From contig JBBTVG010000002.1 of assembly GCA_038063375.1 (NCBI GenBank), forward strand, positions 1 to 54,550: DNA of 54,550 nt, read 5' to 3'. This document shows, piece by piece, positions 32,645-54,550 of this stretch. Source of the DNA: Patescibacteria group bacterium (lineage in GTDB: Bacteria > Patescibacteriota > Minisyncoccia > Phycocordibacterales > JANLHH01). Position 1 is the stretch's first letter. Each line of letters opens with the position of its first letter. Made by a program: the position numbers and the translations under genes. The notes under the pieces are model-generated. The model saw nothing but the letters and a program-made list of their open reading frames with translations. It did not search any database and had not been told where the DNA came from.

Positions 32645-33073
32645 TTACGCCTCCGCTTCCAACGCCAGACAAACAGAGTTGATGCAGTGCCTTTTCCCGC
32701 CTTTCTCGGCTGGGCCACCCGCCTTGACTCGGCGAGGCAGGTCGTCAAATACGTGTCCCAGGTGCGAACCGCACTTTGAGCAGACCACTTCCGTGCGTTT
32801 CATGCCATGACTCGTGTCTAAAACATATTTCACACTGCCCGGTAACGCGTCGGTAAAAGAGGGCCATCCTGTTCCGGATTCAAATTTTACCTCGGAAGAA
32901 AACAACGCATTTCCGCATGCGGCGCATGTATACATTCCCTTTCTTTTCTCTTTTAAGAGAGAGCCGGTAAATGGAGCTTCCGTACCTTTCTTGCGCAACA
33001 CTTCGTACTGTTCCCTAGTGAGCATCTCCTTCCACTCTGCTTCCGTCTTTGGCATTGGTTTTTTGTCTTTCAT
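32645..33073 (-). CDS. msrB: peptide-methionine (R)-S-oxide reductase, with in-frame repeat
   Basis: MsrB reduces methionine-R-sulfoxide. From ATG 33073 the protein has 142 aa with both zinc pairs (C50/C53 and C98/C101), GWPSF, the HLGHVF motif and the catalytic C130 in RHCINS. Between GHVF and the active-site cysteine there are eight extra residues (112-119, LPRRVKAG) encoded exactly by a 24-bp palindromic repeat; removing them restores the common DDGPAEKGGKR sequence. The gene starts 1 nt after the msrA stop. Confidence 0.94.
   Translation of the reverse strand: MKDKKPMPKTEAEWKEMLTREQYEVLRKKGTEAPFTGSLLKEKRKGMYTCAACGNALFSSEVKFESGTGWPSFTDALPGSVKYVLDTSHGMKRTEVVCSKCGSHLGHVFDDLPRRVKAGGPAEKGGKRHCINSVCLALEAEA
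32718..32741 (-). repeat. palindromic repeat, copy A (inside msrB)
   Basis: Left arm CCTGCCTCG, one centre base and right arm CGAGTCAAGGCGGG on the minus strand, 24 bp. Identical over all 24 bp to copy C at 54219-54242. It keeps the msrB frame open. Confidence 0.9.
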
Positions 33074-38297: not shown

Positions 38298-38555
38298 CTA
38301 TTTCTTCCCTTTGGCGGCTTCTCGCACAAAATGAAGCTTCTCCTCGCGGCGCCATCCCTTTATCTCGGCTTCGCGCTTCTGAGCACTGCTTCTGTCTTTT
38401 TGTTTCTCCGTGTAGAGAAGTTTTACCGCTTTTCTTGAGCTGGTGTAGTGTCCGCCTTTGCCATTCTTATGTTCCTGGAATCTCCGTTCAACATCGGTCG
38501 TTATGCCGGTGTAGATCGTACCATCACCGCATTGGAGAAGATAAACATAATACAT
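38298..38555 (-). CDS. GIY-YIG nuclease domain protein, copy 1
   Basis: The 85-aa stand-alone GIY-YIG protein (UPF0213/YhbQ-like) begins YYVYLLQCGDGTIYTGIT and has the conserved R in DVERRFQEHKNGKG and the basic KREAEIKGW helix. Such proteins cut DNA in repair or mobile-element contexts; most stand-alone ones are uncharacterised. It is almost identical to the gene at 39882-40157 except for the last residues. Confidence 0.9.
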   Translation of the reverse strand: MYYVYLLQCGDGTIYTGITTDVERRFQEHKNGKGGHYTSSRKAVKLLYTEKQKDRSSAQKREAEIKGWRREEKLHFVREAAKGKK

Positions 38556-38558
38556 ATA
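38304..38558. repeat. 255-bp direct repeat, copy 1 (GIY-YIG)
   Basis: Matches 39906-40160 with three mismatches, a period of 1602 bp. The repeat covers nearly the entire GIY-YIG gene and stops within a few bases of its ATG. Confidence 0.92.
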
Positions 38559-39881: not shown

Positions 39882-40157
39882 CTACAATGTCCCCAGCGAA
39901 GATCCCTTCCTTTTGGCGGCTTCTCGCACAAAGTGGAGCTTCTCCTCGCGGCGCCATCCCTTTATCTCGGCTTCGCGCTTCTGAGCACTGCTTCTGTCTT
40001 TTTGTTTCTCCGTGTAGAGAAGTTTTACCGCTTTTCTTGAGCTGGTGTAGTGTCCGCCTTTGCCATTCTTATGTTCCTGGAATCTCCGTTCAACATCGGT
40101 CGTTATGCCGGTGTAGATCGTACCATCACCGCATTGGAGAAGATAAACATAATACAT
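39882..40157 (-). CDS. GIY-YIG nuclease domain protein, copy 2
   Basis: The 91-aa protein is identical to copy 1 over the first 82 residues and then ends in RKGSSLGTL instead of GKK, because the repeat stops and the frame runs into unique DNA. It has the same GIY-YIG catalytic elements. Since only the tail differs, either copy could be the parent. Confidence 0.9.
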   Translation of the reverse strand: MYYVYLLQCGDGTIYTGITTDVERRFQEHKNGKGGHYTSSRKAVKLLYTEKQKDRSSAQKREAEIKGWRREEKLHFVREAAKRKGSSLGTL

Positions 40158-40160
40158 ATA
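39906..40160. repeat. 255-bp direct repeat, copy 2 (GIY-YIG)
   Basis: Matches 38304-38558 with three mismatches. Together the copies bracket the META gene, its truncated duplicate and the DUF389-like relic. Confidence 0.92.
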
Positions 40161-49805: not shown

Positions 49806-49868
49806 GCGTTGTTTGCCTCGCACGCGCACTTTCTTTCATGATACCCATTCCGCAGCCCGTTAGATTCT

Positions 49869-49888
49869 GCCAAGACAGCTATCTTGGC
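49869..49888. repeat. tRNA-Thr-acceptor hairpin 1
   Basis: GCCAAGA-CAGCTA-TCTTGGC: both strands of the tRNA-Thr(GGT) acceptor joined by 6 nt. The right half AGCTATCTTGGC is identical to the + strand at the tRNA 5' end (49794-49805). Confidence 0.85.
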
Positions 49889-49907
49889 GTATTTAACTTT
49901 CGACCTA

Positions 49908-49935
49908 CCTGCCTCGCCTTGCGAGTCAAGGCGGG
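49908..49935 (+). repeat. palindromic repeat, copy B (intergenic)
   Basis: Left arm CCTGCCTCG, 5-nt centre CCTTG, right arm CGAGTCAAGGCGGG, 28 bp. It lies between two tRNA-Thr-acceptor hairpins. This is the only copy in non-coding DNA and the only one whose length is not a multiple of three. Confidence 0.88.
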
Positions 49936-49954
49936 CCAAAACAGCTATCTTGGC
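49935..49954. repeat. tRNA-Thr-acceptor hairpin 2
   Basis: GCCAAAACAGCTATCTTGGC; one arm has drifted (two mismatches) and the right 12 nt still equal the tRNA-Thr 5' end. Confidence 0.8.
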
Positions 49955-49985
49955 GTTATGTTTTTTCTGTAACCAGTCAGATTCT

Positions 49986-50005
49986 GCCAAAACAGCTGTT
50001 TTGGC
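49986..50005. repeat. tRNA-Thr-acceptor hairpin 3
   Basis: GCCAAAACAGCTGTTTTGGC, a perfect 20-bp palindrome. It shares the preceding AGATTCTGCCAA context with hairpin 1. The arms have changed together, keeping the pairing. Confidence 0.8.
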
Positions 50006-52328: not shown

Positions 52329-54550
52329 TTAGAAATTAAAGAGGGTGTCGGCCCATGTCCATATTTTATCATTGATACCCAAACCGGCTCTCTGCCCAAC
52401 TCCTGTCGCACACTGATTGTAATGGGGACTTGCCGTGGTTGTTTTTCCCAAAGGAATACAGACTTGTTCGGGATTGGTCAGGAGTTTGCGATAGAAGCAG
52501 TACTCGGTGTTTTTTGAGTCAGAGGCGGATGAGCGAGTGATGTCCTCCGCTGGGGAAGCCGTGGTGAACGCAGGGGTGTTATAGAAAGCATTTTTGGTAA
52601 TAACCACGCCACTCCGCAAATCACCATCAACCACGCCTTCAAGATTAATGAATTGGTTACATTGCGTGTCATGAGTGTTCCCCCATCCAAACCGATGCAA
52701 GACTCCTGAATCTATAAAAGCATTAAAGTAGGTCTCCGCGAGATTAGTGGCGCCAAAGTCTAGTGTCACGGTATCAAAACTCCAATCCCAATTTTTACCT
52801 TTGATCTTCCAGAAGATATTTCCAATGATAGAAATGTGGTCTGCGACAGGAAATACGGGAGATACGCCCTCGCCACTGTCAAATATTATATTTTTATCTA
52901 TGCGCACATAATCACCTCCGTAATAACCTTGTTGTACCTGTAATCCATCCGAGACTCCGGTATTACTAAGTCCAATTGAAGAACCACTTCCATTCAGCGT
53001 TAAACCAAGATTATCATCTCCATTGCGCGAACCCCATAATCGGTTATTGAAGATGCGCGACGGGTTCTCTGCAATACCGCCCGCTTTAAGTGAAATGAGA
53101 TCTTCGGTAATGGCACACGGGCCGGTCCCGTTATAGTTTCCTTTGCAATCAGTATATGCCGCAGTGGTGGCATACACGTCGTTATTTTCAATAATAAGTC
53201 CTTCATGCGTCCATACACCATCACCAATAGCTATGCCTTTTTGACAATTATATATTTCGTTGTTGACGATATGAAGCCTCGGGCCGCCTGACGCGTTGAT
53301 ACACTGCGCTTCAAACTGACGACTGATGACCGGGTTTCTCAACACGCTATTTTGAATCGTGTTGTCGGGGTGGCCGTTATTACCCATCTGAAAGAAATGT
53401 GCTTCATCGTTTTGGAAAAGCAATCTGTCAAAAATATTAAAACTGCTTCCTTTATTTCCATCCCCCCACGAAAAACGAACAGACGCATTTACATTTGCGC
53501 CTCCTGCGTCAAAGGTGAGCCGATGAACCAGCCAGTAACTCGCGCTGTTTTTAAGTTGCACGGCAAAAAGACGCGCGCGTTTATTGGGAGATTGGCGTAC
53601 CGGATGCGCTCCATCGTCCGGCGAATCATAATATCTGAGCACCTTACGATTGTTGGAAGTTCCGGAGAACAGAAGATAAAGAACGTTCTTGTTGGTATGA
53701 TCCCCCGCCGCAATACAATAGGTAGTATATTCTGGATGATCTTCAATTTTGCTCCAGTCGGAGTCGGAGGGATAGACAATCGTATCGCAGGATTTCTTCG
53801 TCAGTGTTTCAATATCCACATCGCAATTCGGATTCCCTTTCCGGCATTCGTACTCGGCGACATAGCCATTGAGGTCAGCGCCGGCGATTGGTTGCGGTAT
53901 TGGACTCGGTGCAGGTTCAACCGCCGTCACAACCACCGTCACGGACTTTGCCACCACGTCTCCCGCGCCTCCTTTACAGGAAAGCGTATAGGTGGTGGTG
54001 ATTACAGGAGTGAGGGTGGTGGAACCGCTTGCTGTTTTGGAGCCTGTCCAGCCATTGGAGGCGGTGCAGGAAGTGGTATTGGTGGAACTCCAGGTAAGGG
54101 TGGTGGCAGTGCCTTTCGTGAGCGTGGTTTTCGTTGCCGTAAAAGAGAGCGTTGGCGCGGGGAGTGTAGGAGTCGTGGTGGTGGCGGGAGGAGTAGTCGT
54201 AGCGGGAGTAGATGCGGGCCCGCCTTGACTCGGCGAGGCAGGAGCGGCGATAATCCCTATGGTATACGAAGCGAAGAGGTCGCCATCGGAGACAGTGGCA
54301 GTGATCTGATAGGTGCCGGTAGAGCTAAAGGTGAGAGTGGTGGTGTTGGCGGTGAGAGAGGAGAACGTAACGGAACCGGGACCTCCTGTTTTACTCCAGA
54401 GGTAGGTGAGTGCGCCTCCCGGTTTCCCATCATCAGTGGCTATGGCAGTCAGTGTGGCTTTGTTCGGCAGGGTGACAAAGCGCTCTCCGGTGATAGAGAG
54501 GTTTGGTGAGCGGTTGGGCCCGCCTTGACTCGCGTCAGTCGAGGCAGGCC
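52329..54550 (-). CDS. secreted PKD/Ig-like protein with parallel beta-helix, N-terminus outside window
   Basis: The frame stays open to the window edge, so the start lies beyond 54550; at least 739 codons are visible. From the edge it encodes a repeat-coded linker, a PKD domain (NRSPNLSITGERFVTLPN...) closely related to that of the next gene, a second repeat-coded linker, one Ig-like module (LTWSSTNTTSC...GWTGSK) and about 520 residues of right-handed beta-helix with rungs such as IIENNDVYA and IIGNIFWKI. Such proteins bind or degrade polysaccharides or serve as adhesins. A start at the internal GTG-like codon near 53957 would cut the Ig-like module and is rejected. Confidence 0.85.
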   Translation of the reverse strand, partial: PASTDASQGGPNRSPNLSITGERFVTLPNKATLTAIATDDGKPGGALTYLWSKTGGPGSVTFSSLTANTTTLTFSSTGTYQITATVSDGDLFASYTIGIIAAPASPSQGGPASTPATTTPPATTTTPTLPAPTLSFTATKTTLTKGTATTLTWSSTNTTSCTASNGWTGSKTASGSTTLTPVITTTYTLSCKGGAGDVVAKSVTVVVTAVEPAPSPIPQPIAGADLNGYVAEYECRKGNPNCDVDIETLTKKSCDTIVYPSDSDWSKIEDHPEYTTYCIAAGDHTNKNVLYLLFSGTSNNRKVLRYYDSPDDGAHPVRQSPNKRARLFAVQLKNSASYWLVHRLTFDAGGANVNASVRFSWGDGNKGSSFNIFDRLLFQNDEAHFFQMGNNGHPDNTIQNSVLRNPVISRQFEAQCINASGGPRLHIVNNEIYNCQKGIAIGDGVWTHEGLIIENNDVYATTAAYTDCKGNYNGTGPCAITEDLISLKAGGIAENPSRIFNNRLWGSRNGDDNLGLTLNGSGSSIGLSNTGVSDGLQVQQGYYGGDYVRIDKNIIFDSGEGVSPVFPVADHISIIGNIFWKIKGKNWDWSFDTVTLDFGATNLAETYFNAFIDSGVLHRFGWGNTHDTQCNQFINLEGVVDGDLRSGVVITKNAFYNTPAFTTASPAEDITRSSASDSKNTEYCFYRKLLTNPEQVCIPLGKTTTASPHYNQCATGVGQRAGLGINDKIWTWADTLFNF
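54219..54242 (-). repeat. palindromic repeat, copy C
   Basis: 24 bp identical to copy A in msrB, but read in another frame: here it encodes PASPSQGG in the linker after the PKD domain. Confidence 0.9.
54519..54548 (-). repeat. palindromic repeat, copy D
   Basis: Left arm CCTGCCTCG, 7-nt centre ACTGACG and right arm CGAGTCAAGGCGGG, 30 bp. It encodes PASTDASQGG in the linker just before the PKD domain. Confidence 0.88.

Follow-up and report, generated by a model that had tools for sequence, protein, structure and literature searches.

In-frame insertions of a short, apparently mobile palindrome in MsrB and other proteins of Patescibacteria

A 24-nucleotide insertion in the msrB gene of a Patescibacteria group bacterium is best read as one copy of a non-autonomous mobile palindrome, which would insert untargeted and without duplicating its target, and which would survive inside genes almost only in frame; we give this reading a probability of roughly 0.8. 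The family of this element consists of imperfect palindromes, most of them 21–36 nt long, with the typical form CCTGCCTCG-N-CAAGGCGGG. The insertion was first noticed in a stretch of 54,550 nucleotides (the window) from the source genome, G000, in a reading made from the letters alone. The observation made there is confirmed, and its interpretation, a family of apparently mobile in-frame palindromes in CPR bacteria resembling the Rickettsia palindromic elements, is supported.

Results

The insert in MsrB

The following features of the window are relevant here.

32645..33073, minus strand: msrB, peptide-methionine (R)-S-oxide reductase (Pfam SelR, E 2.1e-46; solved MsrB relatives; fold match)
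32718..32741, minus strand: 24-nt palindromic element in msrB, CCTGCCTCGCCGAGTCAAGGCGGG on the minus strand; in frame; exact 24-nt difference from the empty site of the same genus
49908..49935, plus strand: 28-nt element in CCTGCC orientation; spanned by no ORF of at least 100 aa and judged to lie outside genes
52719..54550, minus strand: part of the ORF of a protein judged to be of surface type from its repeats and linkers; stop-free frame of 610 aa, open at both ends of the stretch read
54219..54242, minus strand: 24-nt element identical to the msrB copy; in frame (PASPSQGG) in the large, putatively surface-type protein
54519..54548, minus strand: 30-nt element (PASTDASQGG) in the same putatively surface-type protein; one and the same copy as C19:24-53, owing to a contig overlap

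Both identical copies of CCCGCCTTGACTCGGCGAGGCAGG, at 32718-32741 and 54219-54242, were located as claimed in the sequence-only reading, and 100 shufflings of the window gave no match to this sequence. With the start codon of msrB picked to match the residue numbering used in that reading, the protein reads HLGHVFDD-LPRRVKAG-GPAEKGGKRHCINS across the insert. The eight residues LPRRVKAG are contributed by the element and lie in a loop about ten residues before the RHCINS motif, the Cys of which we take to be catalytic. The earlier statement that the repeat encodes these residues exactly stands for the count (8 residues, 24 nt) but not for the register: the extra codons occupy 32740-32717 and the repeat 32741-32718, an offset of one base that places the repeat within a codon. 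With an ancestral GAT, the insertion point in this codon would be GA^T; some relatives have GAT here (e.g. locus L066), and G001, a genome of the same genus, has GAC. The frame in which MsrB reads the element is a minority one, used by 9 of the 102 in-ORF copies of the pooled tally described below.

The predicted structure of MsrB (mean pLDDT 79) matches the fold of solved MsrB structures, and the insert is absent from both aligned solved sequences. The block 111-120, which comprises most of the insert, has a mean pLDDT of 54 (below 50 for residues 113-115); it is preceded by a strand that ends at residue 107 and followed by strand 126-129, which holds the conserved Cys. Judging from the intact frame and the conserved motifs, the enzyme is probably still functional.

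MsrB in related genomes

In the order to which the source genome belongs, 78 MsrB matches were found; 70 loci were read out, and 69 of these were readable at the loop, G038 being the exception (L424 repeats a copy already in L085). The element is present in only two of the 69, those of the source genome and of G034, and absent from the other 67, in line with the earlier expectation that some close relatives would lack it cleanly. In G001, with an MsrB 89% identical to that of the source genome, exactly 24 nt are missing at the insert site. That removal of the repeat restores the family consensus was likewise borne out, as 25 of 27 aligned MsrBs are without the element. G034 belongs to another family, and between its MsrB and the source MsrB the identity is only 59%; the corresponding place (GA^TGG) is occupied here by a variant of 27 nt, CCTGTCTCGCCGACAAGACAAGGCGGG. 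The one similar peptide found in a distant MsrB is itself encoded by a variant of the palindrome, and not by a sequence without nucleotide similarity to the repeat. Vertical inheritance of the insert was considered unlikely, given its absence in the same genus and the variant in another family, a judgement made from this distribution and from the MsrB identities.

At the same site, four relatives (G048, G016, G058 and G063) have unrelated longer loops, which indicates that the site tolerates insertions; selection may account for part of the coincidence between the source genome and G034. The same loop in G077 MsrB reads LPDGKAG, which may be a decayed copy and was left out of the element tally.

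The element family in the source genome

The search of the whole genome suggested by the sequence-only reading revealed copies across the genome and a clear frame rule. The strict arm, TTGACTCG, gave nine matches (eight distinct) and the wide-arm pattern CCCGCCT-N(2-30)-AGGCAGG gave 13 (12 distinct), one match of each set being a contig overlap counted twice; both reversed-pattern controls gave none. Eight of the 12 copies have the TTGACTCG arm, and four (LeuRS, RpiB, AlaRS and C19:54) have looser arms. When a 14-base arm was searched for with as many as two mismatches allowed, the gain was only four sites, while the control gave three matches. Ten of the 12 copies, with lengths of 21, 24, 30 or 33 nt, lie in frame in ORFs, and their hosts are MsrB, AlaRS, LeuRS, GatB, RpiB, Dus and surface proteins. 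The two others (28 and 32 nt) were judged to be outside genes; the 32-nt copy is found in an open stretch just ahead of a likely GIY-YIG gene start, and counts as an exception to the length rule in the pooled tally.

An assembly artefact, a contaminant or a chance likeness of an ordinary indel could be suspected, since contig C2 ends at a copy and most records are MAGs. The element occurs, however, in many different assemblies and projects, in frame and with variable middles, and the control counts in the source genome are zero, which leaves this explanation with a next to negligible probability.

Other repeats were observed in the same region. Around the 28-nt element, at 49848-50005 and adjoining a tRNA-Thr gene, another palindromic repeat (like GCCAAGATAGCTGTCTTGGC) is present in three register copies, and two direct repeats of 255 nt, 99% identical and 1.6 kb apart, are located at 38304-38558 and 39906-40160. 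Contig C2 ends inside the gene of the surface-type protein with an exact 55-bp overlap (window 54496-54550) with contig C19, and the two contigs probably adjoin; in C19 a second element follows the overlap copy in tandem.

Empty sites and junctions

At six enzyme sites (MsrB, AlaRS, LeuRS, GatB, RpiB and Dus) relatives were found without exactly the element, the difference in length being equal to the element length. Besides the MsrB copy, the elements measure 33 nt (AlaRS, junction GAT^TA), 21 nt (LeuRS, GA^GAA), 30 nt (RpiB, inverted, GG^CGG), 30 nt (GatB, GAT^TA) and 24 nt (Dus, AG^CCG). The empty sites of AlaRS, LeuRS and RpiB are in G001, that of GatB in G003 and G031, and that of Dus in four relatives; for GatB and Dus, which had no match in G001, the comparison was with other families. 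A target duplication was looked for at all six sites by comparison with the empty orthologues, and no extra bases were found. At MsrB and LeuRS, we infer one base of the ancestral codon. In G034, GatB is one residue shorter than the other empty sites, and the RpiB site has an unrelated longer loop.

Length and reading frame

A pooled tally was made of all loci collected, with copies less than 150 bp from an end dropped and in-gene copies defined by an ORF of at least 100 aa. The length is divisible by three in 97 of 102 in-ORF copies, compared to 23 of 60 others (odds ratio 31, p 1.5e-15), which implies that a copy inside a gene is retained almost exclusively when in frame; we infer selection against frame-breaking copies. 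The five that break the rule lie in ORFs of 100, 169, 100, 106 and 564 aa. Without the copy-rich genome G090 the counts are 97 of 101 and 23 of 41 (p 2.4e-8), leaving some excess of lengths divisible by three among the non-ORF copies, perhaps due to short genes. In the first 80 stretches from a scan of one genome per species, 82 distinct copies were found, of which 75 have a length divisible by three; for copies within an ORF of 100 aa or longer the figure is 63 of 64. In 20 whole genomes, picked for carrying the element, the same holds for 112 of 140 places (p 1.1e-29), after four nested rows of 144 had been removed by hand.

In G090, 27 of the 44 copies were examined. None of the 18 classified copies with a length of 1 mod 3 is spanned by an ORF of 100 aa or more, and three further copies are without any ORF; three of four copies of 0 mod 3 and one of two of 2 mod 3 lie inside such ORFs. 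Many copies in this genome (L249-L268) are 22 nt long and outside genes, and several have similar flanks, with ACTGGA before and TTCCCGCCT after, as if they sat inside a longer composite repeat.

The share of copies in ORFs is 63% (102 of 162; 101 of 142 or 71% without G090), compared to 83% when positions in these loci are drawn at random. Genes are thus not a preferred target of insertion, and the copies within them appear to be filtered.

Mitochondrial bypassing elements are known as sequences inside genes that are missing from the protein. The present element, a hairpin within genes, could likewise be removed from the mRNA or skipped by the ribosome, so that the protein would be made without it. 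Divisibility by three would then be needless, yet it is found in 97 of 102 copies, and the frames are open; we consider such removal very improbable.

Host proteins and the added peptide

In one orientation and one frame the element encodes PASPxxSQGG, and this peptide is found in 67 of the 102 in-ORF copies. Among 40 scanned host proteins, part of the 62 distinct hosts from the first 80 scan stretches, the element lies inside a Pfam match in 23 and between or outside domain matches in the other 17. The former include RNA polymerase beta', GAPDH, TypA, topoisomerase I, TsaD, Pth, LeuRS, RecG, deoxyhypusine synthase and a recombinase of the phage integrase family.

The predominance of one peptide could mean that the inserts are kept because they are useful, either as a peptide or as an RNA hairpin, in regulation, stability or protein solubility. 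In one orthologous pair, of which the proteins are 80% identical, the element is also identical at 27 of 27 positions apart from three extra nucleotides in the middle, against a background of 76%; but 33 of 1048 other 27-nt windows of this pair are identical as well, so that the conservation is only suggestive. Moreover, the element is patchily present with empty orthologues, its host genes are unrelated and, as shown by the shares above, copies are not enriched in genes. A benefit to the host is accordingly regarded as improbable.

Distribution

A scan of one genome per species yielded at least 115 stretches with the element. Among the matches listed, most are from Patescibacteria according to the record titles (Giovannonibacteria, Nomurabacteria, Levyibacteriota, Gottesmanbacteria, Howlettbacteria and others); further titles are WOR-3, Omnitrophota and Ratteibacteria, and also Bacteroidetes, Ignavibacteriales and Burkholderiales as putative hosts. 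With the source genome included, strict arms are present in 13 of 379 genomes of a phylum sample and in three of 98 genomes of the order. Wide arms are present in 29 of the 98, part of which may be chance, as the reversed wide-arm pattern gave 14 matches across 13 of these genomes; in the 20 element-bearing whole genomes this control gave one match in one genome. Up to 44 wide-arm copies were counted in G090, 42 in a WOR-3 genome and 23 in a Wildermuthbacteria genome. G175 (L365, L377, L381, L383 and L385) has five copies of a 28-nt variant, CCCGCCTTGATGAGCAAAGCGAGGCAGG, one with a single change, which suggests a genome-specific subfamily. Carriage by viruses was also considered and not retained: the strict pattern had no exact match in viral contigs.

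Discussion

Spread and mechanism

Identical middles are more common in pairs of copies from the same genome (0.128) than between genomes (0.036), a difference reached by 1 of 2000 permutations in a hand-typed subset, and this supports copying within genomes. The pattern CCYGCCTYG-N-CRAGGCRGG was found at 155 places in 24 genomes. In the 75 of these that were listed, the arms are of one main type in 68 and of single variants in six and one, and a fully Watson-Crick complementary arm pair was not found among them. Such a conserved mismatch would be in keeping with a hairpin that is recognised as single-stranded DNA, and descent alone could also explain it; the conserved arms may reflect recent common descent. 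By inspection, the main-type arms are stop-free in five of six frames, and inside genes the middle varies by whole codons.

We propose that an element of mostly 21–36 nt, in which the arms are fixed and slightly mismatched and the middle varies, would be moved in trans. From the comparison of six sites with their empty counterparts, a copy would enter between two bases, with the target not duplicated, and its landing would not be aimed at genes. Within a gene it would survive almost only if its length is a multiple of three and its frame open, in which case it would be translated straight through, adding 7–12 residues, usually PASPxxSQGG, at tolerant positions in hosts that presumably keep functioning.

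The element could be a true REP, moved by the REP-associated Y1 (HUH) transposase (RAYT) of the same genome. Its size and imperfect hairpin fit, and HUH transposition is not expected to duplicate the target, in agreement with the sites compared. Y1_Tnp is present in 25 of 29 wide-arm genomes of the order compared to 34 of 69 others (p 6e-4, from a hand count in which some wide matches are due to chance), and in 15 of 20 element-bearing genomes elsewhere. On the other hand, the flanks of 91 copies (15 bases on each side) show no GTAG/CGTC tag and no conserved tetranucleotide, and the wide-arm palindrome is absent from all 50 Y1 loci inspected (153 kb) and from the sole Y1 locus of the source genome. 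Palindromes of other kinds border several of the Y1 genes. Among a further 19 Y1 stretches, part of which were picked for holding both, the nearest wide-arm palindrome is about 0.6 kb away (two of these regions gave no ORF; one of the two was included in the follow-up and the other, L236 of G048, was not). No Y1 was found in the element-bearing G043, nor in five of the 20 other genomes, although MAGs are not complete. With an association at the level of genomes, yet no copy in 50 Y1 loci, RAYT was not adopted as the mobiliser, and we regard this origin as unlikely, though it deserves more weight than the other alternatives. Rather, the mobile palindrome would be moved by something that recognises its imperfect hairpin as single-stranded DNA; this is a guess, which seems the most likely one and is held at less than even odds.

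In G071, a Y1 transposase gene was observed with CCCGCCCTATGTACATAGGGCGGG-type palindromes on both sides (L237, 6592-6615 and 7358-7381), which is probably a transposon of its own.

Relation to known elements

The Rickettsia palindromic elements are dispersed palindromes found in frame in unrelated genes, with a length of about 150 bp according to a review of MITEs (PMC10969869). The analogy drawn in the sequence-only reading holds for behaviour: the present palindrome is dispersed in one genome (12 distinct copies, control 0) and is inserted in frame in unrelated protein genes (ten of the 12) with empty orthologues. Family membership is a separate claim; compared by description, the present elements differ in being found in other phyla and in having one dominant peptide. 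Their length is mostly 21–36 nt, but RPE-4 and RPE-6 correspond to REP-type repeats according to PMC3733652, so that size alone does not separate the two.

The REPs of the GTAG and CGTC superfamilies (Di Nocera et al. 2013) are described there (PMC3733652) as palindromes of 20–40 bp in several phyla, some of them intragenic and translated; two Xanthomonas species have copies at approximately the same position of recB. The present element is likewise an imperfect palindrome within this size range, but lacks their tag. REPs are mostly intergenic and flank their RAYT gene, whereas this element is mostly intragenic, with G090 as the exception, and is absent from the Y1 loci inspected. With MITEs it shares the character of a short, non-autonomous palindromic repeat, but no target-site duplication was found at the six sites and no parent transposon was seen. 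Coding inverted repeats are also present in protein genes of Nematomorpha mitochondria, where both arms encode protein according to the abstract of PMC6649704; as described there, these are longer (up to 284 bp), mitochondrial, and not a dispersed bacterial family.

Going by these papers, in-frame palindromes in bacterial proteins are already known from Rickettsia and some REP-rich species, and the kind is therefore known. In the open-licence papers searched, no description was found of in-frame palindromes in the present phyla, nor of the letters of this element. To these known cases the present elements add a further family from uncultivated phyla, Patescibacteria among them.

Biological meaning

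These sequences could represent minimal mobile hairpins that cross phyla, of a coding-tolerant design, which colonise essential proteins, sometimes twice at one site, by machinery not yet described; this wider reading is speculative, and we hold it a little less firmly than the guess on the mobiliser. The same-site insertions and the exact junctions make the mechanism of movement testable. The presence of the family in RNA polymerase, tRNA synthetases, GAPDH and topoisomerase shows that short mobile DNA can repeatedly give rise to insertions in proteins, reduced genomes included. If the element is indeed a coding-tolerant hairpin, it would keep supplying the streamlined genomes of CPR bacteria with short protein insertions.
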